A DNA stretch of 64,000 nucleotides from Pseudobacteriovorax antillogorgiicola (GCF_900177345.1 NZ_FWZT01000029.1:1-64000); one strand, 5' to 3'. Counted from the stretch's first letter, positions 14,739 through 64,000 are shown. The notes: generated by a model from the letters alone, not told the origin. Numbers and translations: made by a program.

Positions 14739-15601
14739 ATGAAAGATTCACTGTACTTTTGCCAGTATATGCTCTTGACCATCCAGAAAGGCTATCTGTC
14801 TGTCTTGAGTCAATCACAAGGCAAGTTCCAAAACCTCAAGAAATCGTAATAGTAATAGATGGTCCAATTGGCGGCAAACTTAAACAAGTTATTCACGACT
14901 ATGCTTATAAAAAAAATTTGGAGATAGCTTTTAGAATAATATTGAATGAAATTAATTTAGGTCTTGGACGATCCCTGTCTAAGGGGGTTTTAGAATGTTC
15001 GAATGATCTAATTGCTCGAATGGATGCTGATGATGAAGTTGTTGATGGGAGATTCACCCGGCAAACCATGGAATTCGAGGCAAACCCTGATCTAGTCTTG
15101 GTGGGAGGACATATTTGTGAGGTTGAAGACACAATGCACAAGAATTCTACTGAACAATGTGTTCGACGCGGTATTTTGGGAGTCGAAAGAATACGGAATC
15201 AGGCACCATTCAGAAATCCTTTCAATCATATGACGGTGATGTTTCGAAAAAGTGCTGTGCTCAAAGTTGGCAACTATAGGCCAGTACCTTGCTTTGAAGA
15301 TTATTACTTATGGATGAGAATGCTTAAAGCTGGTTACCATATGGATAATATAGACTCAATACTTGTCCGCGCTACAATTGGTAATGGAATGATAAAGCGC
15401 AGAAGTGGTTTTGACTATGTAGTAAACGAAATCAAATTCTTCAAGAGATTACTAGAAGAGAATCTGATTTCAAGTAGTACATATATGAAAATTGTCGCGG
15501 TGAGATTACCCTTGCGTTTACTGCCAGAACGTTTATTGAGATTTGTGTATCAGGATATATTAAGGGACAGATATGCTAGTGGAATGCCGCAATCTAGATG
15601 A
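14735..15601 (+). CDS. glycosyltransferase family 2
   Basis: The 288-residue GT-A enzyme begins RFTVLLPVYALDHPERLSVCLESI, then NLGLGRSLSKGVLECSNDLIARMDADDEV, with the metal-binding DADD box, and NPFNHMTVMFRKSAV in the acceptor region. It resembles the capsular/amylovoran-type GT2 enzymes. It acts in the cytoplasm on lipid-linked intermediates. Its start overlaps the Wzz-like gene by 4 bp (ATGA) and its end overlaps the GMC oxidoreductase by 29 bp, so it is part of a coupled operon from 12458 to 18040. Substrate unknown. Confidence 0.85.
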   Translation: MNERFTVLLPVYALDHPERLSVCLESITRQVPKPQEIVIVIDGPIGGKLKQVIHDYAYKKNLEIAFRIILNEINLGLGRSLSKGVLECSNDLIARMDADDEVVDGRFTRQTMEFEANPDLVLVGGHICEVEDTMHKNSTEQCVRRGILGVERIRNQAPFRNPFNHMTVMFRKSAVLKVGNYRPVPCFEDYYLWMRMLKAGYHMDNIDSILVRATIGNGMIKRRSGFDYVVNEIKFFKRLLEENLISSSTYMKIVAVRLPLRLLPERLLRFVYQDILRDRYASGMPQSR

Positions 15602-17123
15602 TGAAACATGGACTGACATTTGTATTATTGGTTCAGGGCTTGGAGGGGGGACTCTCGCGTTGCAGCTTGCAAATACTGACAGCAGAATCTTCCTAATCGA
15701 AGCTGGCAACTCTATTAGAAGCAGCTGTTCAGCTGTTCAGCATCGTAGTGTGGGCAGAGCATTTAAACTTAATCCAACCCGAGCTATTGAAGTCGGTGGA
15801 ACTTCGAACCTTTGGCATGGAGTCCTTGCGCCGCTCGATGAAATAGATTTTCAATATAGAGAATGGATTCCCCACAGTGGGTGGCCGATTAAGCTCTCAG
15901 ATCTAAAGCCATGGTACGACAAAGCAGGCATGTTTTTAGGTATTAAGTCGTCTCATTTGTTTGATGTGGATATACTAGAAAAAGAGCTCGGTATTAGTCG
16001 GTATGACTTGCCTATAGTGCGAGATGTCATTGATAACAAGGTTTTTCAGCAGCCACAGCCGGTGACTGATCTTAAATCTAAGTTAATGTGGGCTTCAAAA
16101 AAATATAGCAACTTCACTATAGTTTCAAATGCGGTAGCCCTAGAATTGAAATCATCTAGTGCAATAAGGGATAGGATAGACAACCTTGAAGTTGGTTGTT
16201 TATCGACCCGAATAACAAAGAAGATCAGAGCAAATATCTTTATAGTGTGTGCAGGGGCCTTAGAGTCGCCGCGTCTTCTACTAAATTCTTGCAAGTTTAA
16301 GCCTGGTTCAAAATACAATAAGTATAACAATATAGGCGCGTTCTTGATGGATCACCCTATGGGAAATCTAGTTCAGGTGAAGTTTCGTCGTCCTACGGTC
16401 GCGAGAATGTATAGTGACTTTAAAGGGGAGTCAAGTGTCAAAGTTAAATCCGGAATTGTATTCAGAGATTCGATACAGCGACTAGAGCGGCTTCCTAACC
16501 ACAATTTTTATGTACGACCAAGTTTTAAGGAGGGAATCAACAATGAGACAGAGACTCTGAAATTGTACCTGTTGACTCTTAAAAGAGGAAAGCTAAGTCT
16601 ATCCAAAATACTGAAAGTGATTTTTAGCATAAACTTGGTTTTACAAATCTTAGTATATAAGTTAAGTCTTCGTGTTAAGTACAGATTTGCAGATCTTTTT
16701 TTTGTTACAGAACAGGTTCCGAGCCGCGATAGTTATGTGTCTCTATCTCATGAAAAAGATGACTTTGGCTATCCTATTGCTTCCGTAAACTGGAATGTTT
16801 CTGATATTGACTTAGTATCTATGGAAAAGTCTTTAGGTTACGTAAGGCAAATATTCTCTGATAGGTATTTTGAATTTGTACACGAAGATAAAGATATTGA
16901 TTGGAAAAACTCTTTTACCTCTGCTGCCCATCATGTTGGTACTCTAAGGATGGCTAAAGGACCGGAGGATGGAGTCGTCGATAAGAATCTGAAGGTTTTT
17001 GGATTAGATAACCTTTATGTCTGTGATGGTTCTGTTTTTCCTACATCAGGTAATGTTAACTCAGGTCTGACTATTGTAGCTTTGGCTTTTCGTCTGGCTC
17101 GATATCTGAGAGGTTTGAAATGA
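15573..17123 (+). CDS. GMC-family FAD oxidoreductase
   Basis: The 516 residues open with an FAD-binding ICIIGSGLGGGTLALQLA motif near residues 16-33 and contain EVGGTSNLWHGVL, a GMC feature. They end with the GMC C-terminal block HHVGTLRMAKGPEDGVVD and SVFPTSGNVNSGLTIVALAFRLA. The HHVGT and SGNVN segments hold the expected catalytic His/Asn positions. GMC enzymes oxidise alcohols, often sugar hydroxyls. Here, between a glycosyltransferase and an SDR with 29-bp and 4-bp overlaps, it most likely acts on a sugar or lipid-linked sugar, but the substrate is not known. A GMC oxidase inside a polysaccharide operon is uncommon. Confidence 0.85.
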   Translation: MLVECRNLDDETWTDICIIGSGLGGGTLALQLANTDSRIFLIEAGNSIRSSCSAVQHRSVGRAFKLNPTRAIEVGGTSNLWHGVLAPLDEIDFQYREWIPHSGWPIKLSDLKPWYDKAGMFLGIKSSHLFDVDILEKELGISRYDLPIVRDVIDNKVFQQPQPVTDLKSKLMWASKKYSNFTIVSNAVALELKSSSAIRDRIDNLEVGCLSTRITKKIRANIFIVCAGALESPRLLLNSCKFKPGSKYNKYNNIGAFLMDHPMGNLVQVKFRRPTVARMYSDFKGESSVKVKSGIVFRDSIQRLERLPNHNFYVRPSFKEGINNETETLKLYLLTLKRGKLSLSKILKVIFSINLVLQILVYKLSLRVKYRFADLFFVTEQVPSRDSYVSLSHEKDDFGYPIASVNWNVSDIDLVSMEKSLGYVRQIFSDRYFEFVHEDKDIDWKNSFTSAAHHVGTLRMAKGPEDGVVDKNLKVFGLDNLYVCDGSVFPTSGNVNSGLTIVALAFRLARYLRGLK

Positions 17124-30137: not shown

Positions 30138-31049
30138 CTATACTTGTGAGCAGAACTCTAGCGTTTCACGAATACTTTTTCTGAAATCTTTTTTTAGAGA
30201 GTGTCCGGACAACTCAAGCTTTCTATTGGATAGTTGCAGGGTGAATTGATCTTTCTGTATGTCATTAGTCGTTATAGAGGGCCTAAATCCAATGTGTTTT
30301 TCACATTCATTCTGAATTAGATTTGCCAACTCTAGAATCGAGAACGAGGTAGAGCTGCAAAGATTGTAAGTCCCATTTAGAGCTGCCTCATCTTTTAAAA
30401 CTTTAAGTAGCGTTAGTTCAATGTCATCAATAGGAATAAAATCACGCTGTGAGCCTGGTGACTTCAATACCATATTTTTGTTTCTAATTGCTTGTAGACA
30501 TAGATCATTCGCCACTAGTGACCACCGTCCCATGTCGGAAGATACTGGAGCTCCTATAGCGTTGGATAGTCGAAATATCGTACAATTTGCGCCAGTTTGT
30601 TTTCGGATTGAATTAACAATGTCCTCAGCAGATCTCTTTGAGTATCCATATGGGTGGGTAGGGAAAGTTGGTGTGTTTTCATCGTAAAAGCCTCTTAGGG
30701 GTGAATCGTAGACATGTACCGTAGAAAAGTAAACGATTCTTGGTATATTTCTCATTGATGCGGCTTGAAGGAGCTCATAGGTGTAGAGCACGTTTGTTTT
30801 AATAGCGTCTGAGGGAGATTCAGCACATTTCAACTCATCAAGGCCCGCTAAGTGAATTAGGCAGTCAAAGCTATGATTCGAGAATAATCTAAGATAGTCA
30901 GATTCGTTCTTCGGATAGCCCAAGTTTAGGCTGTGACTCTTAAGTCTTTGGCGAGACGTAAAAAGAACATCTACGCCACTCAGTAATAGAAACCTCGTAA
31001 AGCGTTGGCCAAGATAGCCAGATCCTCCAGTGATAAGGACTTTAGTCAC
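30138..31049 (-). CDS. NAD-dependent sugar epimerase/reductase (SDR) in the CDP-sugar module
   Basis: The 303 residues have VLITGGSGYLGQRF, LIHLAGLDELKCAES, VYFSTVHVYDSP and YGYSK for the YxxxK pair. It overlaps rfbF by 8 bp and is co-transcribed with it. It is therefore a likely reductase or epimerase acting on CDP-4-keto-6-deoxyglucose or a later CDP-3,6-dideoxy intermediate, comparable to RfbJ/RfbS-type enzymes. The exact product (abequose, paratose, ascarylose or another CDP-6-deoxyhexose) cannot be fixed. Confidence 0.75.
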   Translation of the reverse strand: MTKVLITGGSGYLGQRFTRFLLLSGVDVLFTSRQRLKSHSLNLGYPKNESDYLRLFSNHSFDCLIHLAGLDELKCAESPSDAIKTNVLYTYELLQAASMRNIPRIVYFSTVHVYDSPLRGFYDENTPTFPTHPYGYSKRSAEDIVNSIRKQTGANCTIFRLSNAIGAPVSSDMGRWSLVANDLCLQAIRNKNMVLKSPGSQRDFIPIDDIELTLLKVLKDEAALNGTYNLCSSTSFSILELANLIQNECEKHIGFRPSITTNDIQKDQFTLQLSNRKLELSGHSLKKDFRKSIRETLEFCSQV

Positions 31050-31833
31050 TAAACTTCTCTCTTATCCAAGGTGCTTTGGAATTTTTGTACATGTTATTCA
31101 GAAGCAAAAACTCCCTGTGTGTATCCATAGGTTGCCAAAATCCGTTATGTGGAAAAACTTTCATTTGATTGTCTCTTACCAAGTCGTTGATAGGATCCTT
31201 TTCAAAAACTAGGCTTTCACGATCATCAAGGTACTCAAAAATTTCTCTTTTGCAAACGAAGAAGCCGCCGGATATTCTTCCACCCGAAGACTGTGGCTTC
31301 TCATTGAAACCAATCACAGAATGGTCAGGCGTTGAAGCGATCTCTCCGAATCGGCCTGGAGGGTGGACTCCTGTCACAGTAAGAATTTTTCCATGGTATT
31401 TATGAAACTGAAGTAGCTCATCCAAATCGATATCTCCAACACCATCTCCATAGGTAAGCATGAAGTTATCGTCTTGCCCAATATACTTAGCAACCTTTTT
31501 AACACGTCCTCCTGTCATTGTGTTCAAGCCAGTTTCTGCAAGAGTAACTTTCCAGTCAATAGGTAGATTACTACCTAGATACTTAATCGCACGATTATCA
31601 TCAAAATCAATCTGAAAATCGGATGTGTACACCCGATAGTTTAAAAAGAAATCTTTGATAACATGTGATTTATAGCCAAGGCATAGTACGAATTCTTTAT
31701 GGGAAAAATATGAGTAGTATTTCATAATATGAAAAAGGATTGGATAAGGGCCGATGTTTATCATGGGCTTGGGGAGAGATTCCGATACGTCTCGAATTCT
31801 TGTCCCAAAACCTCCGCAAAGAATAACGGTTTT
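31042..31833 (-). CDS. rfbF: glucose-1-phosphate cytidylyltransferase
   Basis: The protein begins VKTVILCGGFGTRI with the nucleotidyltransferase signature (GGxGTR) and LPKPMINIG. MTYGDGVGDIDLDELL carries the metal-binding Asp, and VTGVHPPGRFGEI is an RfbF-specific stretch. It makes CDP-glucose from CTP and glucose-1-phosphate. I placed the start at GTG 31833 because GAAGGA sits 6 nt upstream and the family starts exactly here. The open frame reaches 31911. It is divergent from rfbG. Confidence 0.92.
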   Translation of the reverse strand, partial: KTVILCGGFGTRIRDVSESLPKPMINIGPYPILFHIMKYYSYFSHKEFVLCLGYKSHVIKDFFLNYRVYTSDFQIDFDDNRAIKYLGSNLPIDWKVTLAETGLNTMTGGRVKKVAKYIGQDDNFMLTYGDGVGDIDLDELLQFHKYHGKILTVTGVHPPGRFGEIASTPDHSVIGFNEKPQSSGGRISGGFFVCKREIFEYLDDRESLVFEKDPINDLVRDNQMKVFPHNGFWQPMDTHREFLLLNNMYKNSKAPWIREKFSD

Positions 31834-31939
31834 CACAATTAATTCCTTCTTAGCCGATTTCAATTTGGAATGTCTCATTATTATTGTAATCGTAGAGATA
31901 TAAATCAACAATTAACTAGCTTTATCAAAATGGAGCATT
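31834..31939. promoter_or_regulatory. divergent region between rfbF and rfbG
   Basis: About 106 bp separate the two CDP-glucose genes, which point away from each other, so both promoters must lie here. The region is AT-rich. I could not pick out a strong -35/-10 pair for either side. Confidence 0.35.
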
Positions 31940-33034
31940 ATGTTTGACCACAGATATAGAGGAACAAGTGTACTTGTCACAGGACATACTGGATTTAAAG
32001 GAAGTTGGTTAAGTCAATGGTTACTGGACCTTTCAGCGCGGGTCACGGGATTTTCGCTTTATATACCAAGTCAACCATCAAATTATGAAGTACTTAATCT
32101 GCAAAATCGTATGGAAAGTGTTGAAGGGGATATTCGAAACTATAGAGACCTACTCCAGGTAGTCGAGAATACCAAGCCTGATATCATATTTCACTTAGCC
32201 GCTCAGCCAATAGTGAGTGCTTCGATTTCTGAGCCGCTGTCAACGTTCGAAACAAACATTGTCGGATCCGCTAATGTTCTTCAAGTAGCTAGAATGAGCG
32301 ACTCCGTAAAGGCTGTTGTAATGGTAACAAGTGACAAATGCTATGACAATGTTGAGTGGGAGTTCGGTTATCGAGAGACAGATCGCCTTGGAGGAAAAGA
32401 TCCATACTCTGCGTCAAAGGGAGCAGCTGAACTTGTTATTCACTCGATGATAAAAACTTACTTTCGCGGAGAGAGTGCGACTCGAATCGCTACTGGGCGT
32501 GCAGGAAATGTAATTGGTGGAGGAGATTGGGCTCTAGATCGAATTGTACCAGATTCAATTAGGGCTTGGAGTCAAGGATTAGAGCCAACAATTAGATCGC
32601 CAAACGCCACAAGACCTTGGCAACACGTATTAGAGCCATTGAGCGGCTATCTATGGTTAGGGGCTCAACTGCTTTCTCAAGAATGTAGAGTGCACGGTGA
32701 GTCCTTTAACTTCGGTCCGAACGCCAAAACTATTCAATCAGTTAAAGACCTGATTAAAGAAATGACCAGACATTGGGAGGGTAAATCTTGGAAAGTTAAG
32801 AGGTCTGAAGGCTTGACAGGAAAGGAAGCAGGATTGCTTAAATTATGCTGCGATAAAGCCCTAGCTAGACTAGACTGGGCTCCCGTACTGTCTTTTGGTC
32901 AGACTGTAGAGTATACCAGTAGATGGTATAAAAATTTCTATGATGCAAATTTCTGTATGGCTGAGGTGACAGAAAGTCAGATTCATGGTTACTGTGATTT
33001 GGCTAAGGAACAGAAACTGAGATGGGCTTTATAG
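31940..33034 (+). CDS. rfbG: CDP-glucose 4,6-dehydratase
   Basis: The 364 residues match RfbG: VLVTGHTGFKGSWLSQWLLDL, FHLAAQPIVSASISEP, VTSDKCYDNVEW with the catalytic Asp-Lys, and DPYSASKGAAELV with YxxxK. ATGRAGNVIGGGDWALDRIVPD is another RfbG block. It converts CDP-glucose to CDP-4-keto-6-deoxyglucose, the branch point to CDP-3,6-dideoxyhexoses and CDP-6-deoxyhexoses. It is followed 16 bp later by an RmlC-like cupin. Confidence 0.93.
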   Translation: MFDHRYRGTSVLVTGHTGFKGSWLSQWLLDLSARVTGFSLYIPSQPSNYEVLNLQNRMESVEGDIRNYRDLLQVVENTKPDIIFHLAAQPIVSASISEPLSTFETNIVGSANVLQVARMSDSVKAVVMVTSDKCYDNVEWEFGYRETDRLGGKDPYSASKGAAELVIHSMIKTYFRGESATRIATGRAGNVIGGGDWALDRIVPDSIRAWSQGLEPTIRSPNATRPWQHVLEPLSGYLWLGAQLLSQECRVHGESFNFGPNAKTIQSVKDLIKEMTRHWEGKSWKVKRSEGLTGKEAGLLKLCCDKALARLDWAPVLSFGQTVEYTSRWYKNFYDANFCMAEVTESQIHGYCDLAKEQKLRWAL

Positions 33035-33509: not shown

Positions 33510-34955
33510 CTAATCCGACCCTAGTTGGACTTCGATAACACTTTTGATTTGTAGTGGTTTGTGAAAAAAATGCGCCATATCTTCGTTGTTTTTGCGAAAG
33601 CTCTTTCTCAGAGTCTGGTAATTGTGTGCCACTTCTAGAGCACCCTCAAGACTCTTTCGATGTCGAACAGTAAAACAGTTCTCACATTGGATTGCTACCT
33701 CTAGGTTATCAAGGGAGTTGTCTAAAAGGATAACTGGAACCCCTTTTGACAAACATTCAAACATTAATGTGGTTCTTAGTGTACCAAATACAATGTAGAG
33801 ATCTTGATTGAGAATTGTTGTAGGCGATATATCAGTAAATCTGTACTCTGGATACTGACGCTGGAGAATATCAGCAGTCAGCGGGTGAGCTTTAATTGCT
33901 ATATTTGTCAGGCTAAGAATATTGGATTCTTTGGCTTGCTCTAAGATCAATCTAGATTCTTCAATGTAGTACGGCAAAACTAGGATGTACTCTACTTCCT
34001 TTCTCTCGCTTGTGATTGGTAAATTGTCCTCCCATAAATAGTGAAACCGATATGCTGGTATGATGGATACTTGAAGGTATGGGCAGATATTCTGAAGGTT
34101 GTCTTTAAAATACTTACCGATTGCAGCATATCGTCGTGGGCAGAGTTGAGCTTTGACTTCTTCAAAACTAGGTGCGAAGTGAAAGTCCCGACCATATACA
34201 GTTGCACCACCGTGATAACCAATGACTTTCTTCGTGATTTTGAGAGTCTTCGCTGCGATCATAAGAGATCTGTCTATGGGCTGGTTTTCAAACCAGTCGA
34301 TGATAAGGTCAATTCTATCTCGATGATCAGAAAATATATTATAGTATGCTTTTTGAGCTAGTAATGCATTCCAAGTATCGAAAGATGCTGCTTCACTTAT
34401 ACAATATTTCCACGTTGAATTGGGGATATGTTGCGATTTGCAGAATCTGACTTCAAAAAAAAGAAACATAAATGCTTTGAAATAGTCAGATATTGAGAGA
34501 AATTGCTCTTTGTAAATAACAGTGAAAGGAGTTCTAGGGTTTTTGATATGCCTGAGAATCTTGGGCAGGTCTTTGAATCGAATTGCAGATAAATTAGCTA
34601 TATAGATAATTCTATGGTCGTAGTCGTCGTGAAACCCTTCGAAGAAGTTATAATATCGATCTTCTATCTTCGATTGGTTTTTTATCATCATTGGTAGTAG
34701 AAACCAATCGACCATTATAATATTTTTAGATTGATTAATGTATCGCGGCTTAAGTTTATTAGCGAGATATAGAATTGCCAGAATAATGACTGTTTTTGCA
34801 CCTATATATAGTCTTTTTACGGCATTAGAGATAAAATGGGGGTTTGTCAAACTTCTAGCTAGCTTTTCAATCTCGATATCATTGAGGTGTTGCTGCGCAT
34901 TTACAAGGCTTTCGATATCTCTATAGTGAGGCGAAAGGTATCGACTTCTAGACAT
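33510..34955 (-). CDS. GT-B-like surface polysaccharide transferase (HP-motif protein)
   Basis: I cannot assign a firm family. The 481 residues have one hydrophobic stretch near 50-65 (TVIILAILYLANKL), a YHGGATVYG block resembling the HGG of capsule and LIC12162-type transferases, and NIAIKAHPLTADILQ. The KAHP resembles the HP motif of CMP-sialate/Kdo transferases and CDP-glycerol transferases. It then has FGTLRTTLMFECLSKGVPVILLDN, typical of a GT-B donor domain. It is the last gene of the operon containing a KdsB-like enzyme and so is a candidate for transferring the CMP-activated sugar. The start at 34955 has no clear ribosome-binding site. Confidence 0.5.
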   Translation of the reverse strand: MSRSRYLSPHYRDIESLVNAQQHLNDIEIEKLARSLTNPHFISNAVKRLYIGAKTVIILAILYLANKLKPRYINQSKNIIMVDWFLLPMMIKNQSKIEDRYYNFFEGFHDDYDHRIIYIANLSAIRFKDLPKILRHIKNPRTPFTVIYKEQFLSISDYFKAFMFLFFEVRFCKSQHIPNSTWKYCISEAASFDTWNALLAQKAYYNIFSDHRDRIDLIIDWFENQPIDRSLMIAAKTLKITKKVIGYHGGATVYGRDFHFAPSFEEVKAQLCPRRYAAIGKYFKDNLQNICPYLQVSIIPAYRFHYLWEDNLPITSERKEVEYILVLPYYIEESRLILEQAKESNILSLTNIAIKAHPLTADILQRQYPEYRFTDISPTTILNQDLYIVFGTLRTTLMFECLSKGVPVILLDNSLDNLEVAIQCENCFTVRHRKSLEGALEVAHNYQTLRKSFRKNNEDMAHFFHKPLQIKSVIEVQLGSD

Positions 34956-35093: not shown

Positions 35094-36014
35094 CTATCTA
35101 ATTAAGCCCTCAATTGCAGCCAATCCCATTGCGAGGATTGCTTCTTCAGAGCTTCCCCCTATATGGGGGGTGCCAATGAAGTTGTCAAGTTTGATCAAGG
35201 GCGAATCAGTCGGTTCTATGCTAAAAACGTCACTAGCAGCACCGCGAAGCTTTCCTTCAACAAGGTGCTTATAGAGAGCATCCTCGTCGACTATCCCACC
35301 TCTTGATGTGTTGATTATATAGGAAGATTCGCAGACATAACTTAGAATACTACTTGACACCAGGTTTTTTGTCGACGAGTCTAGTGGAACATGAATAGTG
35401 ATGATGTCAGATGATTTAAATAGATCTACTAAAGAAACATTCTGTATATTATATTTCTTACAGAAATCAAGATCTGGATCAATATCGTGTGCCAGGATCT
35501 TACCTGCAATCGGTTGAACTAAACGACTGACCTCTTTGCCCACATTCCCTAGGCCAAGTATTCCAATAGTTTTTCCAGAAACAAGGTTACCCGGAAGAAT
35601 TTTCCAAGTTCCACTTTTTAGAAGCGAAGCATTAGAGAAAGTTTTGTTGCACAGATTTAGCATTAGTGAAAGTGTAAGCTCCGCAACACTCCTTTTATTG
35701 ACGCCTTTTGTATATTGAATTGTTACATTATTTTTTTTGAGAGCTTGAAGATCTATTTTGTCTAGCCCTACTCCATATTTAGATATATGCTTTAAATTTG
35801 GGACTTTCTGTAAAAGTGTATCGTTTATTTCTTCAAGTGCGATGATTGCTTGATCTGCTTCTTTCAAGTAGTAAGCGAGGTTCTCACCTCTAAGCTTCTC
35901 ACCTTGTTCGTTGTATATAATATTCGCCATAGGAAAATGCGATTCTAAATAATCCCGAAGTTTTTGATTTGCCGAGAAGGAGCGAGATGTTACTGCAATT
36001 GTATCCGTTATCAT
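35094..36014 (-). CDS. D-2-hydroxyacid dehydrogenase (phosphoglycerate-dehydrogenase-like)
   Basis: The 306 residues show the family in order: ISKYGVGLDKIDL, NKRSVAELTLSLML, the NAD motif GILGLGNVGKEVSRL (GxGxxG), IITIHVPLDSSTKNL, INTSRGGIVDEDAL with the catalytic Arg, and GTPHIGGSSEEA with the catalytic His. It oxidises a D-2-hydroxy acid or reduces a 2-keto acid. It has no regulatory ACT domain, so it is not a normal serine-pathway enzyme. It overlaps the SIS gene by ATGA, within the KdsB/HpaI cassette. A role in converting a sugar-acid intermediate fits. The 34956-35093 gap upstream of the next gene holds nothing recognised. Confidence 0.85.
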   Translation of the reverse strand: MITDTIAVTSRSFSANQKLRDYLESHFPMANIIYNEQGEKLRGENLAYYLKEADQAIIALEEINDTLLQKVPNLKHISKYGVGLDKIDLQALKKNNVTIQYTKGVNKRSVAELTLSLMLNLCNKTFSNASLLKSGTWKILPGNLVSGKTIGILGLGNVGKEVSRLVQPIAGKILAHDIDPDLDFCKKYNIQNVSLVDLFKSSDIITIHVPLDSSTKNLVSSSILSYVCESSYIINTSRGGIVDEDALYKHLVEGKLRGAASDVFSIEPTDSPLIKLDNFIGTPHIGGSSEEAILAMGLAAIEGLIR

Positions 36015-36637
36015 ATGGATCCATACTCTTTTGATTGTTTGAGTCGCTCAATAAGGTAAGAACCCAATAAATGATCGAATATCATATGGACATCTTCAAC
36101 AGGTCCATATTCGCCGGTGTTTGAGGGAACATGTAAGGAATGATTAGCAAATTTCTTCAGCTCACCACCATCGAATCCCGTTAATCCAACGGTAGTACCA
36201 CCATTGATATTAGCCCAATCTATTGCCTTCAATACATTATTTGAGTTCCCGGAAGCACTTATAGCAATAACCAAATCGCCTTGGTTCATATGATTTCTTA
36301 GCTGATAAAGAAAAATATCATCATAAGTGTCATCATTTGCAATTGCTGTCATCACAGCTGCATTGTCAGTTAGTGCCAGGGCTTTGTAAGGCTTCTTATA
36401 CGATCGAGTGCCTATGCTTAGATCATTCGCGAAGTGACTGGCAGTTGCAGCGCTACCACCGTTCCCAAAGAAAAAAATCTGATTGCCGCTATCTCGAGCA
36501 CTATCTATTAATGCGAGAAAATTCTCCAGTTGCTTGCCATCGACAGATTCTAGAAGTGTCCCAATATAGTTGAAGTACTTTCTAGAGTAAGCATGAAAAC
36601 TTTCGGATTCGCAATAAAACTTCTGCATCATAGTCAT
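36011..36637 (-). CDS. SIS-domain phosphosugar isomerase, GmhA-like
   Basis: The 208 residues contain the SIS pattern FFFGNGGSAATASHFANDLS and DLVIAISASGNSNNVLKAI, then EYGPVEDVHMIFDHLLGSYLI, a GmhA-like C-terminal block with the active-site Glu/His. GmhA converts sedoheptulose-7-phosphate to D-glycero-manno-heptose-7-phosphate. Here no HldE/GmhB heptose genes are nearby, so another ketose/aldose phosphate may be the substrate. ATG and stop overlap on both sides (ATGA) couple it to the Gfo/Idh and dehydrogenase genes. Confidence 0.85.
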   Translation of the reverse strand: MTMMQKFYCESESFHAYSRKYFNYIGTLLESVDGKQLENFLALIDSARDSGNQIFFFGNGGSAATASHFANDLSIGTRSYKKPYKALALTDNAAVMTAIANDDTYDDIFLYQLRNHMNQGDLVIAISASGNSNNVLKAIDWANINGGTTVGLTGFDGGELKKFANHSLHVPSNTGEYGPVEDVHMIFDHLLGSYLIERLKQSKEYGSI

Positions 36638-37680
36638 AATGACTCACCTATGGTTTCTTCATTAAGTTTATATTGATTCTTCCATTTGGGGTCTGAGCAA
36701 TAAATTCGATAGACAAGCTTCATTGTTTGCATTGCTTCGAATGCTGATCCGTTGAGAATAGGTTTGTCAAAGTCAATACAATCTTGAAATTCATCGATTT
36801 CTCGTTTCCAAGATAGGTCTTTGTTATATCGAATAGTCTCTTCTAGTGGATCTCCCATGTCATCGTCATTTTTCCGTACTATTGTAATCGTTTCTGCTCC
36901 ATAACTTTTTGAGCCAGAAAGGATTCCGGAAAGGATTACTGCTCCTTCAGAGAGAGAAATTTCTAGGTTAAACCTGTGCCTCCACTGAGTTGCTGAAGAA
37001 TTTAGCATTCCTATAATGCCATTATTTGTTTTCATAATAGCGTAGGCATTATCTTCGACGTCATGATTCCAATACCTATTTGAGATGAATGAGTGTACTT
37101 CAGAAAATTCTCCGGCAAATAATCGGAATAAATCAACCATATGAATTCCTTGGTCTAATAGTATTCCACCTCCTGCTATAGATCTTTGTGTTCGCCAGTT
37201 ACTTTTGTAATTTAATATTTTTGATTTCCCATAAACACCACGCAAGTTGATAACTTCACCAAGATCGTGCGTTGAAATAATTTCCATTGCTCTCATTATG
37301 GAGTCATGGTAGCGATGGTTGAATCCATACTTTAGTTTCTGCGACGGATGTTGATTAGAAACCTTTATGACACTGGTAATGTCTTCAACAGTTCTGCCAG
37401 GTGGTTTTTCACAAAATACGTGGCAACCTGCTTGCAAACCGAGAATCGTCGCATCTGGAGCTACATCGTTAGTTAAGCAGACGAACAGAGCATCTAGAGG
37501 CTCTTTTTCTATCATCGATTGGTAGCTAGTGTAGTGGCGAGCGCCACACTGAAGCCGTCCTTCCTCTTGGAATTTTTGGTCGCAAACACTTACCACTTCA
37601 AATCTAGGATTTAGATTTAAATAATCATGTCTACGTTTGCCAACGATCCCGTAGCCAGCGATGCCGACTCTGATCTTCAT
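36634..37680 (-). CDS. Gfo/Idh/MocA family oxidoreductase
   Basis: The 348 residues begin IRVGIAGYGIVGKRRHDYL (NAD(P)-binding), with DALFVCLTNDVAPDATI and HVFCEKPPGRTVEDI (the EKP motif), and a C-terminal beta-sheet domain with LLDQGIHMVDLFRLFAGEF. It oxidises or reduces a hydroxyl on a sugar or sugar phosphate. It is coupled by ATGA to the SIS isomerase and separated from the KdsB-like gene by 74 bp. Within this cassette it may shape the aldehyde or keto precursor before aldol addition, but the order of steps is inference. Confidence 0.85.
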   Translation of the reverse strand: MKIRVGIAGYGIVGKRRHDYLNLNPRFEVVSVCDQKFQEEGRLQCGARHYTSYQSMIEKEPLDALFVCLTNDVAPDATILGLQAGCHVFCEKPPGRTVEDITSVIKVSNQHPSQKLKYGFNHRYHDSIMRAMEIISTHDLGEVINLRGVYGKSKILNYKSNWRTQRSIAGGGILLDQGIHMVDLFRLFAGEFSEVHSFISNRYWNHDVEDNAYAIMKTNNGIIGMLNSSATQWRHRFNLEISLSEGAVILSGILSGSKSYGAETITIVRKNDDDMGDPLEETIRYNKDLSWKREIDEFQDCIDFDKPILNGSAFEAMQTMKLVYRIYCSDPKWKNQYKLNEETIGESL

Positions 37681-37754
37681 TTCCCATCCATGGTAGATTC
37701 TTGGTTACTTGGTATACTATCACTAATTGGCTGTTGAAGTATATGAGAATGTCT

Positions 37755-38531
37755 CTATATATTGCATATGTATTGCTCAACAATATCGCATTTTTCCATG
37801 ACTTTGGATACAAATTTTAGGTCGTTGGGAGTATCAACTGGCCAGCTTTGGTCTTCAGTTAGAGGGCAGTGAATCTTATATCCATGCTGAAGAATACGAT
37901 TCATGTCTATGGACTCTATTTCCTCTAGAGGGGTGGGATCCATAGATTGATAAGCTTTTAGAAACGAAGTTCGCATTGGTATTATAGCTACTTGTTTATA
38001 TGACTCAGGAAGATAGTCTTTATTCATACCTAGTGCCACAGGAATAGAAGCGCGGGAGTAGTACAGAGCATAGTCATTCTTGTCACTGACAACTTTTACA
38101 CAGTTTTTAGATCTATAGTCTTCTATAGTCGTTATTCTGTTTCTTAAATTCCAGATTGAAGTAGTTTTATCGTGCAAGTACGCAACGGCATCCTGAAGCA
38201 TCTTGGGAGTTACTAGTGGCTCATCGCCCTGAACCAGAGTTACAATGTCGTATGAGTTGCCTTTGGCTTCAATCTTTCTGATTGCTTCTTCAACACGTTC
38301 CGTTGCTCTATCATGGGTGTTTTTGGTCATTACTGATTCTATGCCGATTGTTCTGGCGTAGTCTGCAATTTCTTGATCACAGGTTGCAATGACTACTTCA
38401 TCGAAAACACCTGAGAGCTTACACCTTGCTGCTACATGACCTATCATGGGTTTTCCGGCGATTAGTTTGAGTGGCTTACCAGGAAATCGAGTACTTGCCA
38501 TACGAGCTGGGATGATACAAATATTCTTCAC
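37755..38531 (-). CDS. kdsB: CMP-Kdo-synthetase-like cytidylyltransferase
   Basis: The 258 residues match KdsB: IIPARMASTRFPGKPLKLIAGKPMI, VVIATCDQEIADYA, TLVQGDEPLVTP and a late ESIDMNRILQHGYKIH block. KdsB activates 3-deoxy-manno-octulosonate (or 8-amino-Kdo and similar ulosonates) with CTP to the CMP-sugar. It starts at a GTG that overlaps the aldolase stop by 4 bp (GTGA). The neighbours are not Kdo genes, so it is probably a paralogue devoted to a special ulosonic acid of this polysaccharide, distinct from the housekeeping lipid A enzyme. The symbol marks homology only. Confidence 0.85.
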   Translation of the reverse strand: MKNICIIPARMASTRFPGKPLKLIAGKPMIGHVAARCKLSGVFDEVVIATCDQEIADYARTIGIESVMTKNTHDRATERVEEAIRKIEAKGNSYDIVTLVQGDEPLVTPKMLQDAVAYLHDKTTSIWNLRNRITTIEDYRSKNCVKVVSDKNDYALYYSRASIPVALGMNKDYLPESYKQVAIIPMRTSFLKAYQSMDPTPLEEIESIDMNRILQHGYKIHCPLTEDQSWPVDTPNDLKFVSKVMEKCDIVEQYICNI

Positions 38532-39280
38532 AATATTTCACCAGTTCCTTTGAGAAAAAAATCTTCAAACTTAGACCTCATTAGAATCATATCCGTACTT
38601 AATGCTAAGAAGTTGTAACCTTGTTCAATATGTTGGTTTAGTTTATTGGAATCTAGATGAATGATATGAGCACCAATATCTAGGTTGAAATTAGTTGCTG
38701 TATTCGCGACTCGTTGAATGGCGTTTAGAAGATCGCTGTGGTTAAGTTGGCCTATTATGCCCATGGAGCCACTAAGGTCATATGGACCAATGAAAATGCC
38801 GCTCAGTCCTTCTACTGAGCAGATCTCTTCTATGTTTCGAACAGCATCTATATGTTCTATTTGCACGATCAATTCTAGATCTCGATTTTTTGAAAGATGA
38901 TCGTCAAAGGCAAAGCCGTACTTATGTGCTCTGCCTAATCCCACCGGGCGCTTGCCTTTTGGAGGATAAAATGCAGCTGAAACAGCATCTTCAGCTTCCG
39001 CACGACTATTCACCATCGGAACAATGAGGCCGTCGACGCCGGTGTCTAGTGCAAACTTCATTGCACTCACTTGATTTTCGTTTACTCTAGCAAAAGCTTT
39101 TTTGCCGTTGCCTTGAATGACTGCAACACAGTCAAATAGCTCTTGTCTATCGACCGGTGAATGCTCCAAATCAATGCAGATCCATTCAAGACTGTCCAGA
39201 TGTGAAATACAATCAGCAATCATAGGGTGTGGGCAAGTAATCCACCCTCCAAATCTTTGATTTCTATTGATAGCTGTCAC
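38528..39280 (-). CDS. HpcH/HpaI-family pyruvate-dependent class II aldolase
   Basis: The 250-residue enzyme has the HpaI/GarL set: ICIDLEHSP (Asp and His), KAFARVNEN (substrate Arg), GVDGLIVPMVNSRAEAEDA, FYPPKGKRPVGLGRA, VQIEH with the metal Glu, and GIFIGPYDLSGSMG with the metal Asp. The spacing matches E. coli HpaI His45, Arg70, Glu149 and Asp175 closely. Family members make or cleave 2-keto-3-deoxy acids from pyruvate plus an aldehyde. I chose GTG at 39280 because GGAG lies 6 nt upstream; a TTG at 39292 is also open. It is coupled to kdsB, so its product is probably the acid that KdsB activates. Confidence 0.87.
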   Translation of the reverse strand: MTAINRNQRFGGWITCPHPMIADCISHLDSLEWICIDLEHSPVDRQELFDCVAVIQGNGKKAFARVNENQVSAMKFALDTGVDGLIVPMVNSRAEAEDAVSAAFYPPKGKRPVGLGRAHKYGFAFDDHLSKNRDLELIVQIEHIDAVRNIEEICSVEGLSGIFIGPYDLSGSMGIIGQLNHSDLLNAIQRVANTATNFNLDIGAHIIHLDSNKLNQHIEQGYNFLALSTDMILMRSKFEDFFLKGTGEIL

Positions 39281-40104
39281 TATATTCTCCAAGTGTCGTA
39301 ATTATCGAAGAAGATATTTTCAATAGTTCCGTTAGATGCAAAAACCTCACATTTATAGGTGTTCCAATCAATTTTAATGTCAATTCTTCCTCCTGAGCGC
39401 TCTACAAGGTGGCATCCTGCTGCAATATCCCAAATGTATATATCTTTCTCGTAGTAAGCATCGATATTGCCCTTAGCAACAGCTAAAAGACTCATGGCTG
39501 CTGATCCGAACATCCTTACTTTTTTAAACGAGCGTAATGCATTTAGAAAATGGTTTCCTTGGCTAGGAGAAAAGTTGACCTCTAGGGGAAAACCAGATGC
39601 TATCACACTATTTTCTATTCTGATTTCTGATGAGACGCTGAGGTCTGACCCAAGGTATCTACTGTTACGAATATCTGTAGATAGGTAGTGCTTTCTATTT
39701 GGAAGGTCATAAATCAGTCCGAGACAAGGTACGTAGTCCTTTAACAGTGCTATTGATGTGCAGTAGATTGGAATGTTGCGAGAAAGATTGTAGCTTCCAT
39801 CCAGCGGATCAATAATCCAAGTTGGACTATTGGTTACTTTGATGGGGTTACCCTCTTCAGAGAGAACAGAGTGATTAGAGGTGAGTGATAGAATAGTTGA
39901 TACTATTGTGTTGATTTCCCGATCTGCAAGCATCTTTATATCGTTTTTATCACAAGATAAAATATCTTTGGGTATCTTTTGCGAATAGTCATCAAGGCTT
40001 GAAATGACTTTGGATAGAAACGCATTCTCATTTCCTTTTAGCACTTCTGCCATCCCTACCATAGTGTGATCTATCTGACCTGCGTCTGAATATATAGTTT
40101 CCAA
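39280..40104 (-). CDS. inositol-monophosphatase-like sugar phosphatase
   Basis: The domain is clear: SEEGNP (metal site), TWIIDPLDGSYNLSRNIP (the DPLDG core), FGSAAMSLLAVAKG and the C-terminal YIWDIAAGCHLVE. This is the lithium-sensitive phosphatase superfamily, which hydrolyses phosphate from inositol, fructose bisphosphate, PAP or sugar phosphates. The frame is open from 40104 but overlaps the FkbM gene by up to 77 bp. A start at one of the ATGs near 40053-40062 is more likely. In this cassette it may remove phosphate before or after aldol addition. Confidence 0.83.
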   Translation of the reverse strand: METIYSDAGQIDHTMVGMAEVLKGNENAFLSKVISSLDDYSQKIPKDILSCDKNDIKMLADREINTIVSTILSLTSNHSVLSEEGNPIKVTNSPTWIIDPLDGSYNLSRNIPIYCTSIALLKDYVPCLGLIYDLPNRKHYLSTDIRNSRYLGSDLSVSSEIRIENSVIASGFPLEVNFSPSQGNHFLNALRSFKKVRMFGSAAMSLLAVAKGNIDAYYEKDIYIWDIAAGCHLVERSGGRIDIKIDWNTYKCEVFASNGTIENIFFDNYDTWRI

Positions 40105-43072: not shown

Positions 43073-44362
43073 CTAGAGAGAAATTTCAGACTTCTCATCG
43101 AAACTGCTTTGTACTTGGGAGCTTCTAGAGCTTCCTGAACTTGCTTGCGTATCAATAAATTTCTTGAACACCTTGCACATGTAATCCAAGTCGTCCTCAT
43201 CAATGCCTTGGTGTATTCCAATTAGAAAGGAATCTTTCATAACTCTATCACTGTTTTTCAATGAGTCGGCTTTTCGATACACAATATTCTTATATGCTTC
43301 ATGGCGTAGAATATTTCCTGCGAATAGCAATCGAATCTGAATACCATGATTCTCTAAGTGTTCGAGTAGTTCGTATCGCTCGAATGGAATATTCTCTTTA
43401 AGTGTAATTGGCAATGAAAGTAAAGAAGGTTCAAGATGACTATCCCACTTTGGTAGTTGAAATAGCTCGCTATACTCCCTAAGAAAATTCATCATGTAGT
43501 CAACATTTCTTTTTCTAATTCTATTGAATTCAGCTAGTCTCTTTAGCTGTACTAACCCGAACGCCGCTTGTAGCTCAATAGTTTTGAAATTATAGCCTAT
43601 TCTATCGTAGGTGTATTTACTGTCATAATGTATACCATCAACTTTATGCTGAAATCTCCTACTGAAGTCTTCGCCTTCTCTAGTCCAGTACTTCTGAAAT
43701 TCATCTGCTCTTCCCCAGTCTTTAAGAGATCTAGCATTGTACATGATCTCGTCAGAGTCTGTAACAAGCATGCCACCACCGCCAGCGAGAGTTAGGTGAT
43801 GAGTAGCATAGAAGCTAAAAGTACAGAGATCTGAGTACTTCCCAGAAAAAAAACCATTTACTGTAGTCCCTATCGTATCGGCAGAGTCTTCAACTAAGTA
43901 TAGATTGTGTCGATTACAGATATCCCTAAGTGCGAAAGTATCAAGAGGGCAACCAAAGGCATGTGGGGCGAATACAGCTTTCGTTTTTGGGCCAATATAT
44001 TTTTCTATACTTTTTATATCTAGATTTAAAGTCTCTATGTCGATATCGCAAACCATAGGTGTGAGTCCGCACTGTATAATCGGATTAAATGTAGTAGGAA
44101 ACGTGCAAGCAGGTGTTATGACTTCGCTGCCTTTAGGGAGGTTTAACGCAGAAATTGCGGAAAGGTTTGCAGATGATCCTGAGTTAACTAAAACGCCATG
44201 CTTCTTTTTGACTAATTCTAGAAATCTATTTTCGAACTCTAGTGTATACTCTCCACAACCCAACCAGCCAGTATTTAGGCTTTCGATGACGGCTGTCTTT
44301 TCTTCGGCACCGTGAACTGGTTTAGCGAATAGGATTCTGCGAATCGGAAGGCTATTTTCCAT
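43073..44362 (-). CDS. RfbH-like 3-dehydratase (DegT fold) lacking iron-sulfur cysteines
   Basis: This member of the DegT/DnrJ family has, at the usual PLP-Lys site, CTFSFYATHHLTLAGGG. His192 (counted from the TTG at 44374) replaces the Lys, as in the PMP-dependent 3-dehydratases RfbH/E1/DdhC and ColD. KYTYDRIGYNFKTIELQAAFGLVQLKRL is clearly of RfbH type. E1/RfbH proteins carry four Cys for a [2Fe-2S] cluster. Here the position of the first reads EDSADTIG (Ala165), and the DWGRADEFQKYWTREGEDF region that should hold the other three has none. It may therefore work by the ColD (glutamate, cluster-free) route. ATG at 44362 has GGAG upstream; TTG at 44374 is also open. Confidence 0.85.
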   Translation of the reverse strand: MENSLPIRRILFAKPVHGAEEKTAVIESLNTGWLGCGEYTLEFENRFLELVKKKHGVLVNSGSSANLSAISALNLPKGSEVITPACTFPTTFNPIIQCGLTPMVCDIDIETLNLDIKSIEKYIGPKTKAVFAPHAFGCPLDTFALRDICNRHNLYLVEDSADTIGTTVNGFFSGKYSDLCTFSFYATHHLTLAGGGGMLVTDSDEIMYNARSLKDWGRADEFQKYWTREGEDFSRRFQHKVDGIHYDSKYTYDRIGYNFKTIELQAAFGLVQLKRLAEFNRIRKRNVDYMMNFLREYSELFQLPKWDSHLEPSLLSLPITLKENIPFERYELLEHLENHGIQIRLLFAGNILRHEAYKNIVYRKADSLKNSDRVMKDSFLIGIHQGIDEDDLDYMCKVFKKFIDTQASSGSSRSSQVQSSFDEKSEISL

Positions 44363-44601
44363 GAGGAGCTCCAAAGTGAAACATAGACATCAAAGATTGA
44401 CCCATAATAGTGGGTCTGTAAGCTATCAAAAACAGTGTTTACCGCTGGCTTAGTTTAGTAAACGCTACATTTTCTCATAATTATACTCAAGTGGAAAATC
44501 GAGATGTTTAGTTCAATTGCTGGCCTTGATTTCTGTTGTTGCATATCTAGCTCTTGAAGACGAATTCTCTAACACCTTTTTAGGGTCTGATTTCAATGTG
44601 T
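44363..44601. promoter_or_regulatory. intergenic region upstream of the RfbH-like operon
   Basis: This 239-bp gap between two minus-strand genes probably carries the promoter of the 10-gene operon that follows. It contains two short inverted repeats: GACCCA/TGGGTC at about 44399-44416 and an imperfect AGTGTTTAC/GTAAACGCT at about 44432-44465. Neither has a T-run on the correct side, so I cannot say whether they are operators or attenuators. No convincing -35/-10 pair was found. Confidence 0.35.
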
Positions 44602-49352: not shown

Positions 49353-50303
49353 ATGCGTCTTGATCATGCACCATTGGATGATCAATGGGATAGGTTAGTA
49401 GATAATTCTCCTAATGGTTCTATATTTTGTAAAAGCTTCTATCTTCGATCATTGTCGACCAAAGTAGGGACGTACTATTGCTTTAAGAATCGAGAGATTT
49501 ATGGCCTGGTTGTAGTTCCAGAGTCAGACTGCGCTAAAACTTCAAAAGACAACGAATTCCTAATATACAGTGGTATTCTATTTCGAAAGCCAAGCCCTAA
49601 TCAAAATCAATCACAAATCTATTCTGAGCGGCTAGAGGTAGCGGCATTCGTAGCATCCGAACTAGATCGACGATATCTCAAAGTTATTTTGAGATTGCAC
49701 CCATCAGTAGATGATTTAAGGGCGTTTCTTTGGCATAACTACGAGTGTGGGCGACAGTACAAGTTAGACCTGAGATACACAACGTATCTTGATATTTCAA
49801 AACTTAGAGACGAGGGAGAACTATCGTTTCAATCAAACTTTTCTTCGTCAAGGCGACAGGAGATTAGAAAATTTAATAGAAGTAACTTAACTTTGGATAT
49901 GACGCCATCATTAGATATATTCTCGTCACTTTTCAAAAAGACATTTGCTCGTCAGGGGGTGGATATAGACCCCCGATCGATATCAGAAATGGTTGCAATA
50001 GTCACCTCTCTCCTAGAGATGGGCTCCTGCAAAGTTTTCAATATATATGATGAACGGGAAAATATTGTATCTTCAGCAATCTTTGGCTTAGATTCTAAAA
50101 TGGCATACTATCTGTATGGTGCAAGTGATCCAGAATTCAGGTCAACAAGTTGCGGAACAGCTGTAATATGGAGTGCTATAAAGTATTTTTCTGAAATGGG
50201 ACTTAATACTATTGACTTGGAAGGAGTTAATAGTCCGCGGAGGGGATGGTTCAAATTATCTTTTGGGGGTGTACTACGCCCGTACTTTGAGATAAGCCTG
50301 TGA
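49353..50303 (+). CDS. GNAT/FemAB-like acyltransferase
   Basis: This protein of about 316 residues has a tandem GNAT arrangement. LDISKLRDEGELSFQSNFSSSRRQEIRKF corresponds to the BioF2/FemAB-type SxxR-xIRK pattern, followed by FKKTFARQGVDIDPRSI, and YYLYGASDPEFRSTSCGTAVIWSAIKYFSEMG near the C-terminus resembles the acyl-CoA/tRNA-binding part. It likely attaches an acyl or aminoacyl group to a sugar amine. The frame opens at 49308, but ATG 49353 with GAGGTAG upstream is my choice; TTG at 49344 is a second option. It overlaps the next gene by 4 bp (GTGA). Confidence 0.65.
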   Translation: MRLDHAPLDDQWDRLVDNSPNGSIFCKSFYLRSLSTKVGTYYCFKNREIYGLVVVPESDCAKTSKDNEFLIYSGILFRKPSPNQNQSQIYSERLEVAAFVASELDRRYLKVILRLHPSVDDLRAFLWHNYECGRQYKLDLRYTTYLDISKLRDEGELSFQSNFSSSRRQEIRKFNRSNLTLDMTPSLDIFSSLFKKTFARQGVDIDPRSISEMVAIVTSLLEMGSCKVFNIYDERENIVSSAIFGLDSKMAYYLYGASDPEFRSTSCGTAVIWSAIKYFSEMGLNTIDLEGVNSPRRGWFKLSFGGVLRPYFEISL

Positions 50304-51985
50304 TTAGCTCAGATCGATACATCTTGCCTTTCCAAATCGAAAACTCCTACCTTCCAGAGGCTATAAAATCAAAAGAGTACCTCTTTAGTTTCGACCCTAA
50401 ATTGCCTTCGCATGATTCTTGGAGGTTAGAGTTTCGGGAGAAGATCAATCGACTCGAAGTTGTCGGTAAGATAAGACAAATGTATCCGATATATTTAGAC
50501 TACTTGTGTAGGTACCTCAATGATTTACACAATATTGAAAGAACAAAGCGATACTGGGAGTTCATGATAGGCTATTGGCTTAGTAATTTTTTGTCAGTAG
50601 TTTATCCATGGTATAGAGTACTAGAAAGCGAAGATATGAACTATTATCGCCATGTCGGTCTAGATCGAAAGTACTTCCGTTCATTCTTAACAAGTCCGAT
50701 GAGCATGATGCACTTTGCTCGAGACGATTTTTGGTATGGGATGCAAATTCATACACGTCTTCTTGAGTGCTTGAAAACCCCTCATGAGTGCATACATGGT
50801 CGAGAGGGCTTCCCTTCTCCAGTCGGCGGAGGTGAATACTCTCAGAGCTATAATTTTTTCGGTTATGAGAATCTAGTTGAGAGGCAGAGCTTCGCCAGAT
50901 CAGAAATAATACTAGCTAGATTGCCGTTTAATAGGAAAGTGAAATACTTCAATACGTTTGACCTCTCGACCGCAAAATACCCCCTAAAAAGCCGTGTTTT
51001 TAGTGATATTGAATTTGAAGACTCCTCCTTCGACTGCTTTATCAGATCTAGTATACATGAATTTTTGCCGCAAGATATCGTAGAATACTATAGCGAATTA
51101 TGTGATGATTCCATGAAAATTACAGGTGATCCGAAGAAGATTTTCGCTACCAATATGATGCATGGATATTGTGGTGCTTTACGTTTTTTTGTAGCTGAGA
51201 GGTTAGAGAATCAGTCTATGAAACTGATTGGTATACAGCACGGAGGCAACTACAACGTAGTGGACTTTCCAGTAAATCATGAGAGAAATATTTCTGATAA
51301 ATATATTACATGGGGTTGGATCAATGGCTCAGTAGATATTCCTCTGGGGTCAATAAAATTGTCTAGCCAGATGCGACCGAAGAAGTTATCTCGAGGACAA
51401 AGAATTTTGCTCGTCGGTAGTGACGCTAACCACAACAGGTTGGGTTCACCCTACTATACTTGCTGTCACGACTACTTTCAGAGGCAAATCGATTTTCTTA
51501 ATCTGCTATCAACAAGAATTAGAGCTATGACCTGTATTAGGATGAATCCAGCGAGTAGTAGTAGTCAAAGGGACTATATATCTTCATGCGTTAGCGATGC
51601 TATTTTTGATCAAGAAAAGGATATATACAAAAGCTTTAGGCTATCAGCACTGAATATTATTGATAATGTCAATACCACGTGGATAGAATCCATAAGTTTA
51701 GATATCCCAACCATACTATTGTGGGATCCGTCCAGAATTGACTTTGTCGATTCCTTCAAGGGTTACTATGAACAACTCGAAGAAGTAGGGATAGCTTACC
51801 GAAAGCCTGAACAAGTCTCTTCAGTAGTTGAAGGGCTCTTTCATAGGAAAAATATATCCGATTGGTGGTTTTCAAGTGATGTTCGGAGAGTTAGGCGTGA
51901 GATATTAGAGCAGTTTGGAAAGCAGGTTAGTTCCCAAAGACTTTGGAATGGGGTGCTTTCTAGGATGCTATCAGTTGAACCTTGA
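50300..51985 (+). CDS. LIC12162-family putative transferase
   Basis: The 561 residues resemble the LIC12162 group of putative surface-polysaccharide transferases. Features are RYWEFMIGYWLSNFLSVVY, TNMMHGYCGALRFFVAE, LIGIQHGGNYNVVDF (HGG block) and YITWGWINGS, with a late SISLDIPTILLWDP that resembles a GT-B donor loop. Its catalytic activity is not established in the family. The start is GTG at 50300, coupled to the acyltransferase. This and the HP-motif proteins at 33510 and 44602 are candidates for transferring unusual activated sugars. Confidence 0.65.
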   Translation: MISSDRYILPFQIENSYLPEAIKSKEYLFSFDPKLPSHDSWRLEFREKINRLEVVGKIRQMYPIYLDYLCRYLNDLHNIERTKRYWEFMIGYWLSNFLSVVYPWYRVLESEDMNYYRHVGLDRKYFRSFLTSPMSMMHFARDDFWYGMQIHTRLLECLKTPHECIHGREGFPSPVGGGEYSQSYNFFGYENLVERQSFARSEIILARLPFNRKVKYFNTFDLSTAKYPLKSRVFSDIEFEDSSFDCFIRSSIHEFLPQDIVEYYSELCDDSMKITGDPKKIFATNMMHGYCGALRFFVAERLENQSMKLIGIQHGGNYNVVDFPVNHERNISDKYITWGWINGSVDIPLGSIKLSSQMRPKKLSRGQRILLVGSDANHNRLGSPYYTCCHDYFQRQIDFLNLLSTRIRAMTCIRMNPASSSSQRDYISSCVSDAIFDQEKDIYKSFRLSALNIIDNVNTTWIESISLDIPTILLWDPSRIDFVDSFKGYYEQLEEVGIAYRKPEQVSSVVEGLFHRKNISDWWFSSDVRRVRREILEQFGKQVSSQRLWNGVLSRMLSVEP

Positions 51986-63744: not shown

Positions 63745-64000
63745 AGACTTCACCTTCGACTGTTCTAAAAGAGTCTGATATTAGGTATTTCTTGATAGCT
63801 TCTTTGATAGACATTGTATCGAACAAAGACGCGAGATAATGGACTTCCAAGTTTGACGGATTGTCGATCTTCTTACCGTAAGAAATTATTTGCTTAGCTA
63901 GACATGTCTGAATCATTCCTCTTTCAAGGAAAATTGTGAAGATGTCTTCCGGTTTATCAGCGACATAACTAGTTTCTTGGTAGGTAAATTCAACAAAGGA
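63731..64000 (-). CDS. C-terminal end of a DUF1588/DUF1585-type protein, cut by the window edge
   Basis: The open frame runs without a stop from the right edge to 63731. Near its end it reads TIFLERGMIQTCLAKQIISYG, then LASLFDTMSIKEAIKKYLISDSFRTVEG. This resembles the C-terminal DUF1585 stretch of the DUF1587/1592/1588/1585 proteins that travel with DUF1552. It overlaps the DUF1552 start by 14-23 bp, so the two are translationally coupled. The upstream domains (expected cytochrome-like) are outside the window. Confidence 0.7.
   Translation of the reverse strand, partial: SFVEFTYQETSYVADKPEDIFTIFLERGMIQTCLAKQIISYGKKIDNPSNLEVHYLASLFDTMSIKEAIKKYLISDSFRTVEGEVYGIK

Follow-up and report, generated by a model that had tools for sequence, protein, structure and literature searches.

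What does an operon make that couples a KdsB-like CMP-ulosonate synthetase to a pyruvate aldolase? The CMP-activated ulosonates that we know of, Kdo and the nonulosonic acids, are all built by PEP-dependent synthases, and pyruvate aldolases of the HpaI family mostly run in the cleavage direction. Such an operon lies in Pseudobacteriovorax antillogorgiicola, within a 64-kb contig stretch that we refer to as the window; nothing relevant on its gene set was found in the open-access literature.

The operon and its setting

A first-pass annotation had described six genes in one coupled operon. Profile searches recovered all six at the positions it gave, on the minus strand and with matching families, and the tight overlaps and intact catalytic motifs that it reported were borne out (Table 1; cassette coordinates are given on the minus strand). 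Overlaps of 4 bp join the D-2-hydroxyacid dehydrogenase (D-2-HADH) gene to the SIS gene, the SIS gene to the Gfo/Idh gene, and the KdsB-like gene to the aldolase gene, and a gap of 74 bp separates the Gfo/Idh and KdsB-like genes. The probable start codon of the aldolase gene is GTG 39280, which overlaps the TAG stop of the IMPase gene, rather than TTG 39292.

Table 1. Cassette genes of the window and candidate transferases, there and in other loci
Feature	Location	Strand	Remarks
D-2-hydroxyacid dehydrogenase, phosphoglycerate-dehydrogenase-like	35094..36014	-	PF02826/PF00389
SIS-domain protein, phosphoheptose-isomerase-like	36011..36637	-	PF13580; GmhA below cut-off
Gfo/Idh/MocA oxidoreductase	36634..37680	-	PF01408/PF22725
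KdsB-like CMP-ulosonate synthetase	37755..38531	-	258 aa, GTG start; PF02348; aldolase-linked clade
HpaI-family class II metal-dependent pyruvate aldolase	38528..39292	-	PF03328; likely start GTG 39280
IMPase-family phosphatase	39280..40104	-	PF00459
Candidate product transferase (tentative)	33510..34955	-	next gene downstream of dehydrogenase; weak TIGR04326 match
TIGR04326 proteins of other loci	L016 8745-10607; L019 6710-8629; L065 5864-7750; L035 9284-10483; L046 9623-11158		

The surrounding locus is of the polysaccharide type, with an ABC transporter bearing a Wzt C-terminal domain, a sugar transferase, an O-antigen-ligase-type protein and many sugar-nucleotide enzymes. Nucleotidyltransferase, CDP-glucose-4,6-dehydratase-like and RfbH-like genes (31042-33034 and 43073-44374) suggest that the polymer also includes a CDP-dideoxyhexose, and CDP-dideoxyhexose-type genes like these also adjoin the cassette of another locus, L065. 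Genes for a GMC oxidoreductase and a DUF1552 (HXXSHH) protein lie within or beside the polysaccharide locus (15573-17123 and 62329-63753).

The KdsB-like enzyme and the PEP-dependent synthases

The window KdsB-like protein exceeds the cut-offs of the NCBI kdsB models (NF009905, NF003952 and TIGR00466), and the source genome (7.3 Mb) holds, on other contigs, two KdsA-family genes over cut-off and a second KdsB. The protein might thus be an ordinary second CMP-Kdo synthetase, fed by KdsA and serving a Kdo-containing O-polysaccharide, with the aldolase as an unrelated catabolic passenger. Several observations make this improbable. A scan of genome contigs and whole genomes returned relatives at 42-51% identity from many phyla, ordinary KdsBs being less similar. 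In a tree of 47 rows, the window protein fell in a clade of 23 that was separated from all 24 ordinary KdsBs with a support of 100/100; two of the clade rows come from a single locus of Daejeonella (L046, 2443-3216 and 8877-9623). The genome's own second KdsB grouped with the ordinary 24 and is 32% identical to the window protein.

The two groups also differ uniformly at four sugar-side positions, H181, Y185, E210 and Q211 in E. coli numbering, which we take to contact Kdo in 3k8d and related KdsB structures. These residues, typical of ordinary KdsBs (24, 23, 24 and 22 of 24 rows, respectively), are not kept in the window protein, the changes being H181Q, Y185I, E210D and Q211M, which correspond to Q180, I184, D209 and M210 in its own numbering; Q, I, D and M occupy these positions in 18, 18, 19 and 19 of the 19 aldolase-linked rows. 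Catalytic residues R10, R15, K19, Q101, D103 and D233 of the window protein are intact, and the CTP and metal residues (E. coli R10, R15, K19, Q98, D100 and D235) are kept in the aldolase-linked rows. The role of Q98, D100 and D235 as metal residues of KdsB is supported (PMC2901514), as are the metal residues of the A. aeolicus enzyme (PMC3149649), and KdsB is a bottleneck for C7/C8-modified Kdo (PMC12409901). The structure model (pLDDT 90.6) matched E. coli KdsB, 3k8d, best in the PDB (TM 0.89/0.93). Judged by its sequence, the window enzyme is not a copy of the Kdo synthetase and belongs to a clade apart, in which the sugar-side positions are altered.

Hosts that carry the aldolase and KdsB-like pair with no detected KdsA, namely Hadarchaeum and Nealsonbacteria, also argue against a Kdo function. 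Neither was KdsA found in the L020 and Kaiserbacteria genomes, and all four genomes have only the clade-type KdsB. By comparison, 14 of the 15 KdsA-bearing cassette genomes have a second KdsB-type hit. Because these genomes are partly incomplete, absence is weaker evidence here than presence. The computational comparisons show a separation of the cassette from Kdo metabolism.

The first-pass annotation had seen neither KdsA nor NeuB, which holds for the 64-kb window; in addition to the KdsA genes elsewhere in the genome, a NeuB gene lies just outside, on the same contig (C29:74009-74731), 10 kb beyond the window and ~35 kb from the cassette. The KdsB-like enzyme could accordingly activate a PEP-derived nonulosonate made by this NeuB, the aldolase merely trimming or recycling that sugar, and NeuB genes indeed occur on many cassette contigs. 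However, the NeuB gene is directly preceded by a cytidylyltransferase gene of its own (C29 73239-73844), so that the NeuA-like and NeuB genes (73239-74731; L063 11222-12954) form a separate nonulosonate pair. Other NeuB-bearing cassette contigs likewise hold further PF02348 genes, and the clade genomes G053, G064, G067 and G070 gave no NeuB hit. We consider a NeuB-derived substrate very unlikely. As for a kdsA- or neuB-like gene serving the operon, an objection that the first-pass annotation had raised against its own reading, what we found is a nearby NeuB with a NeuA-like partner.

The linked aldolase and the recurring gene set

An HpaI-family aldolase gene lies alongside the KdsB-like gene in 19 of the 23 clade rows and beside none of the 24 ordinary KdsBs (Fisher p=1.3e-9, a value that ignores the relatedness of the rows). 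In all 20 loci counted, a set that takes in the window, later finds and a plasmid with a NeuA-type enzyme, the two genes share a strand and lie at distances of -43 to 1744 bp, most pairs overlapping or abutting, and the aldolase gene comes first in 19. Of the 18 aldolase-positive cassette genomes, 15 gave no aldolase hit (E<=1e-12) other than the neighbor of the KdsB-like gene, and the two proteins have diverged in a correlated manner (Mantel r 0.75). That the aldolase stays adjacent across phyla is a further argument against its being a passenger beside a Kdo synthetase.

H44, R69, E146 and D172, the catalytic residues of HpaI-family class II pyruvate aldolases (PF03328), are invariant in the 19 cassette aldolases. 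All 19 also have a clade-specific Tyr171 and an inserted His209. By comparison with AbHpaI, the inserted histidine abuts the position of Leu214, which lines the aldehyde site of that enzyme (PMC8560999). Conserved linkage is accompanied, in both partners, by intact catalytic residues and a joint change at specificity positions. The closest solved structure to the window aldolase is GarL (1dxe); the window aldolase scores 111.6-151.8 bits, below all HpaI, GarL and RhmA equivalog cut-offs (368.8-441). In the aldolase tree, one branch, with a moderate support of 87/91, split the cassette aldolases from 11 catabolic or other ones, including GarL, RhmA, HpaI and same-genome paralogues.

The four clade members whose fetched flanks hold no HpaI aldolase (L017, L020, L023 and L035) show that the aldolase is usual rather than obligatory, and they are the chief weakness of an aldolase-route reading. 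The genomes of L017, L020 and L023 gave no HpaI aldolase hit whatsoever, meaning that the substrate there comes from elsewhere; those of L020 and L023 gave no KdsA or NeuB hit either. D-2-HADH, SDR and zinc-type dehydrogenase genes accompany the four members in varying combinations and may supply the same substrate by other means. Zinc-type dehydrogenase, SDR or D-2-HADH genes adjoin L035 (3408-8732), L020 (7980-12750) and L023 (7977-13056), and in L020 a zinc-type dehydrogenase domain is fused to a GT2 domain.

The recurring unit consists of the aldolase, the KdsB-like enzyme, a D-2-HADH, an NAD-dependent oxidoreductase and a phosphatase. Besides the window, 17 fetched loci have a D-2-HADH gene close to the pair, usually followed by an SDR gene. 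HAD phosphatase genes occur in 10 loci, plus L065, L066 and L093, and in L066 a row runs from the KdsB-like gene through aldolase, dehydrogenase and SDR genes to the HAD gene, which is followed by a 6-phosphogluconolactonase (6PGL)-like gene (12707-13420). The window D-2-HADH, whose best NCBIfam match is PGDH, well under cut-off, groups with those of G052-G054 (96/98). A single lineage of cassette D-2-HADHs was not upheld, as reference sequences fall among the cassette rows. A PF04199 cyclase (arylformamidase-like), perhaps a lactonase, is encoded near the cassette in seven loci (L054, L055, L056, L057/L109, L046, L017 and L020).

Conservation of the D-2-HADH almost matches that of the aldolase, and three of the aldolase-less loci (L017, L020 and L035, but not L023) have its gene. 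The enzyme might reduce the aldolase product to a linear 2-hydroxy acid, to which the KdsB-like enzyme would couple CMP, yielding a phosphodiester-linked hydroxy acid instead of a sugar. In KdsB chemistry, however, the group used is the hemiketal hydroxyl at C2, and the KdsB-like enzyme keeps the residues that handle it; moreover, we know of no CMP-hydroxy acid of such a kind. We regard this alternative as very unlikely.

The remaining genes of the window operon are local. The SIS gene occurs in five cassette loci including the window, and in G052 a copy 50% identical to that of the window adjoins D-2-HADH and Gfo/Idh genes; the protein is accessory, probably acting in precursor supply. Among the fetched loci, only G052 has a counterpart of the Gfo/Idh gene (56% identity; L057 16988-18010). 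This enzyme is also accessory and perhaps substitutes for the SDR of other cassettes, no clear orthologue of which stood out in the window (several window SDRs match at 21-32%). No IMPase homologue turned up in any other cassette locus; the window has no cassette-type HAD, and there the IMPase takes the role usually held by the HAD phosphatase. This patchy occurrence rules out SIS, Gfo/Idh and IMPase as parts of a conserved core. The six-gene set of the first-pass annotation is consequently not a conserved unit: in the co-occurrence search that it proposed, aldolase, KdsB-like and dehydrogenase genes recur, whereas the IMPase is confined to the window and the Gfo/Idh to the window and one relative, with HAD and SDR genes in the relatives.

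The KdsB-like clade is rare. Within the phylum to which the window belongs, it was found in 5 of 58 genomes, the source genome counted, and elsewhere in 3 of 369, 1 of 385 and 1 of 380 genomes sampled around three other carriers, each carrier counted. Its hosts are nevertheless diverse, comprising Hadarchaeum (an archaeon), Nealsonbacteria (CPR), Omnitrophota, Ignavibacteria, several proteobacterial classes and Daejeonella; the pair itself occurs in proteobacteria, Bacteroidota, Ignavibacteriota, Omnitrophota, a CPR bacterium, an archaeon and a viral contig. The latter, a 5.8-kb contig from a viral collection (L105; IMGVR_UViG_3300010883_024701), has just the aldolase and KdsB-like genes of the cassette, abutting. 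Its KdsB-like protein bears the signature residues except for Cys in place of Ala76, and its aldolase bears G88, Y171, H209 and S232. A 6PGL-like gene precedes the pair (344-2587 for the three genes). Further viral scans returned nothing beyond this contig. On plasmid unnamed5 of Acuticoccus sp. I52.16.1 (L093 4950-9402), the KdsB slot of the same cassette is taken by a NeuA-like cytidylyltransferase, the row being aldolase, NeuA-like enzyme, phosphoglycerate-dehydrogenase-like enzyme, HAD hydrolase and oxidoreductase. This Acuticoccus and Daejeonella sp. H1SJ63 are carriers that have been cultured.

A proposed route and its known relatives

These data are best explained by a PEP-independent route in which the aldolase and the KdsB-like enzyme yield a CMP-activated 2-keto-3-deoxy acid other than Kdo, a reading to which we assign a probability of roughly 70%. 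The D-2-HADH, together with an SDR or Gfo/Idh enzyme, would prepare a phosphorylated precursor, with the SIS isomerase added in the window operon. A phosphatase, HAD in other cassettes and IMPase in the window, would remove the phosphate, and the aldolase would join the resulting aldehyde to pyruvate to give the non-Kdo acid, whose C2 hydroxyl the KdsB-like enzyme would couple to CMP. A polysaccharide glycosyltransferase, possibly of TIGR04326 or TIGR04331, might then place the sugar on a surface polymer. We infer the aldol direction and the order in which the other steps occur, as well as the identity of the aldolase product with the substrate of the KdsB-like enzyme. In vitro, an HpaI aldolase formed 2-keto-3-deoxy-galactonate from pyruvate and D-glyceraldehyde (PMC8560999). 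It counts against the proposal that a plain aldol route leaves the conserved D-2-HADH without an evident role. The 'pentulosonic acid' of Klebsiella K38 was dropped as a known product, a review citing Jansson 1994 giving a different K38 sugar. The earlier idea of an aldolase-made acid activated by KdsB thus stands as the best reading, given the conserved unit, the separate clade and the KdsA-less hosts, without the six-gene set to which it was tied.

Regarding transfer, the gene downstream of the window dehydrogenase matches TIGR04326 weakly (E 4.7e-6, below cut-off); a TIGR04326 gene follows the KdsB-like gene in five loci (Table 1), and the structure model of the family is poor (mean pLDDT 51.5). 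The window also encodes a TIGR04331 protein (50300-51985), a family that adjoins the aldolase in L046 and L055. For Herbaspirillum, a role of LIC12162-family transferases in acting on Neu5Ac has been proposed (PMC6679464).

The broader proposal, that a PEP-independent route in bacteria, an archaeon and a viral contig uses a dedicated aldolase to make an undescribed surface sugar acid, perhaps a diacid or one with a shorter chain than Kdo, activated by a re-specialized KdsB, has in our estimation an even chance of being right. If it is, a reversible pyruvate aldolase would represent a second solution to CMP-ulosonate synthesis, and the route would imply a sugar missing from present lists. The unit is small, with two genes in the viral contig. 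As its genes are automatically annotated as kdsB and HpaI, genomes would be mis-annotated, including those of the archaeon and of CPR bacteria without detected KdsA.

The cassette aldolase shares its fold family and catalytic residues with catabolic HpaI, GarL and RhmA, but it lies on a separate side of the tree, has the inserted His and a GPYDLS motif, and adjoins a cytidylyltransferase in polysaccharide loci, whereas those enzymes sit in catabolic operons. Plants have an ulosonate-type sugar for which neither the pathway nor the activated form is established (PMC12168206), a likeness that implies no link to the cassette. The nonulosonic acid pathways (NeuB-NeuA, Pse and Leg) similarly provide CMP-activated acidic sugars for surface glycans, and the NeuA-like enzyme of the Acuticoccus cassette and the neighboring LIC12162 transferase family (PMC6679464) add to the resemblance; in contrast to them, the cassette has no NeuB, that of the contig being paired with its own NeuA-like gene. 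The Kdo pathway (KdsD-KdsA-KdsC-KdsB) has in common with the cassette the KdsB fold, the catalytic residues and CTP-dependent activation of a 2-keto-3-deoxy acid, as well as a phosphatase and a SIS protein in the window operon. Unlike that pathway, the window operon has a pyruvate aldolase and no PEP-dependent KdsA, and its KdsB-like enzyme belongs to a separate clade with changed sugar-side positions.
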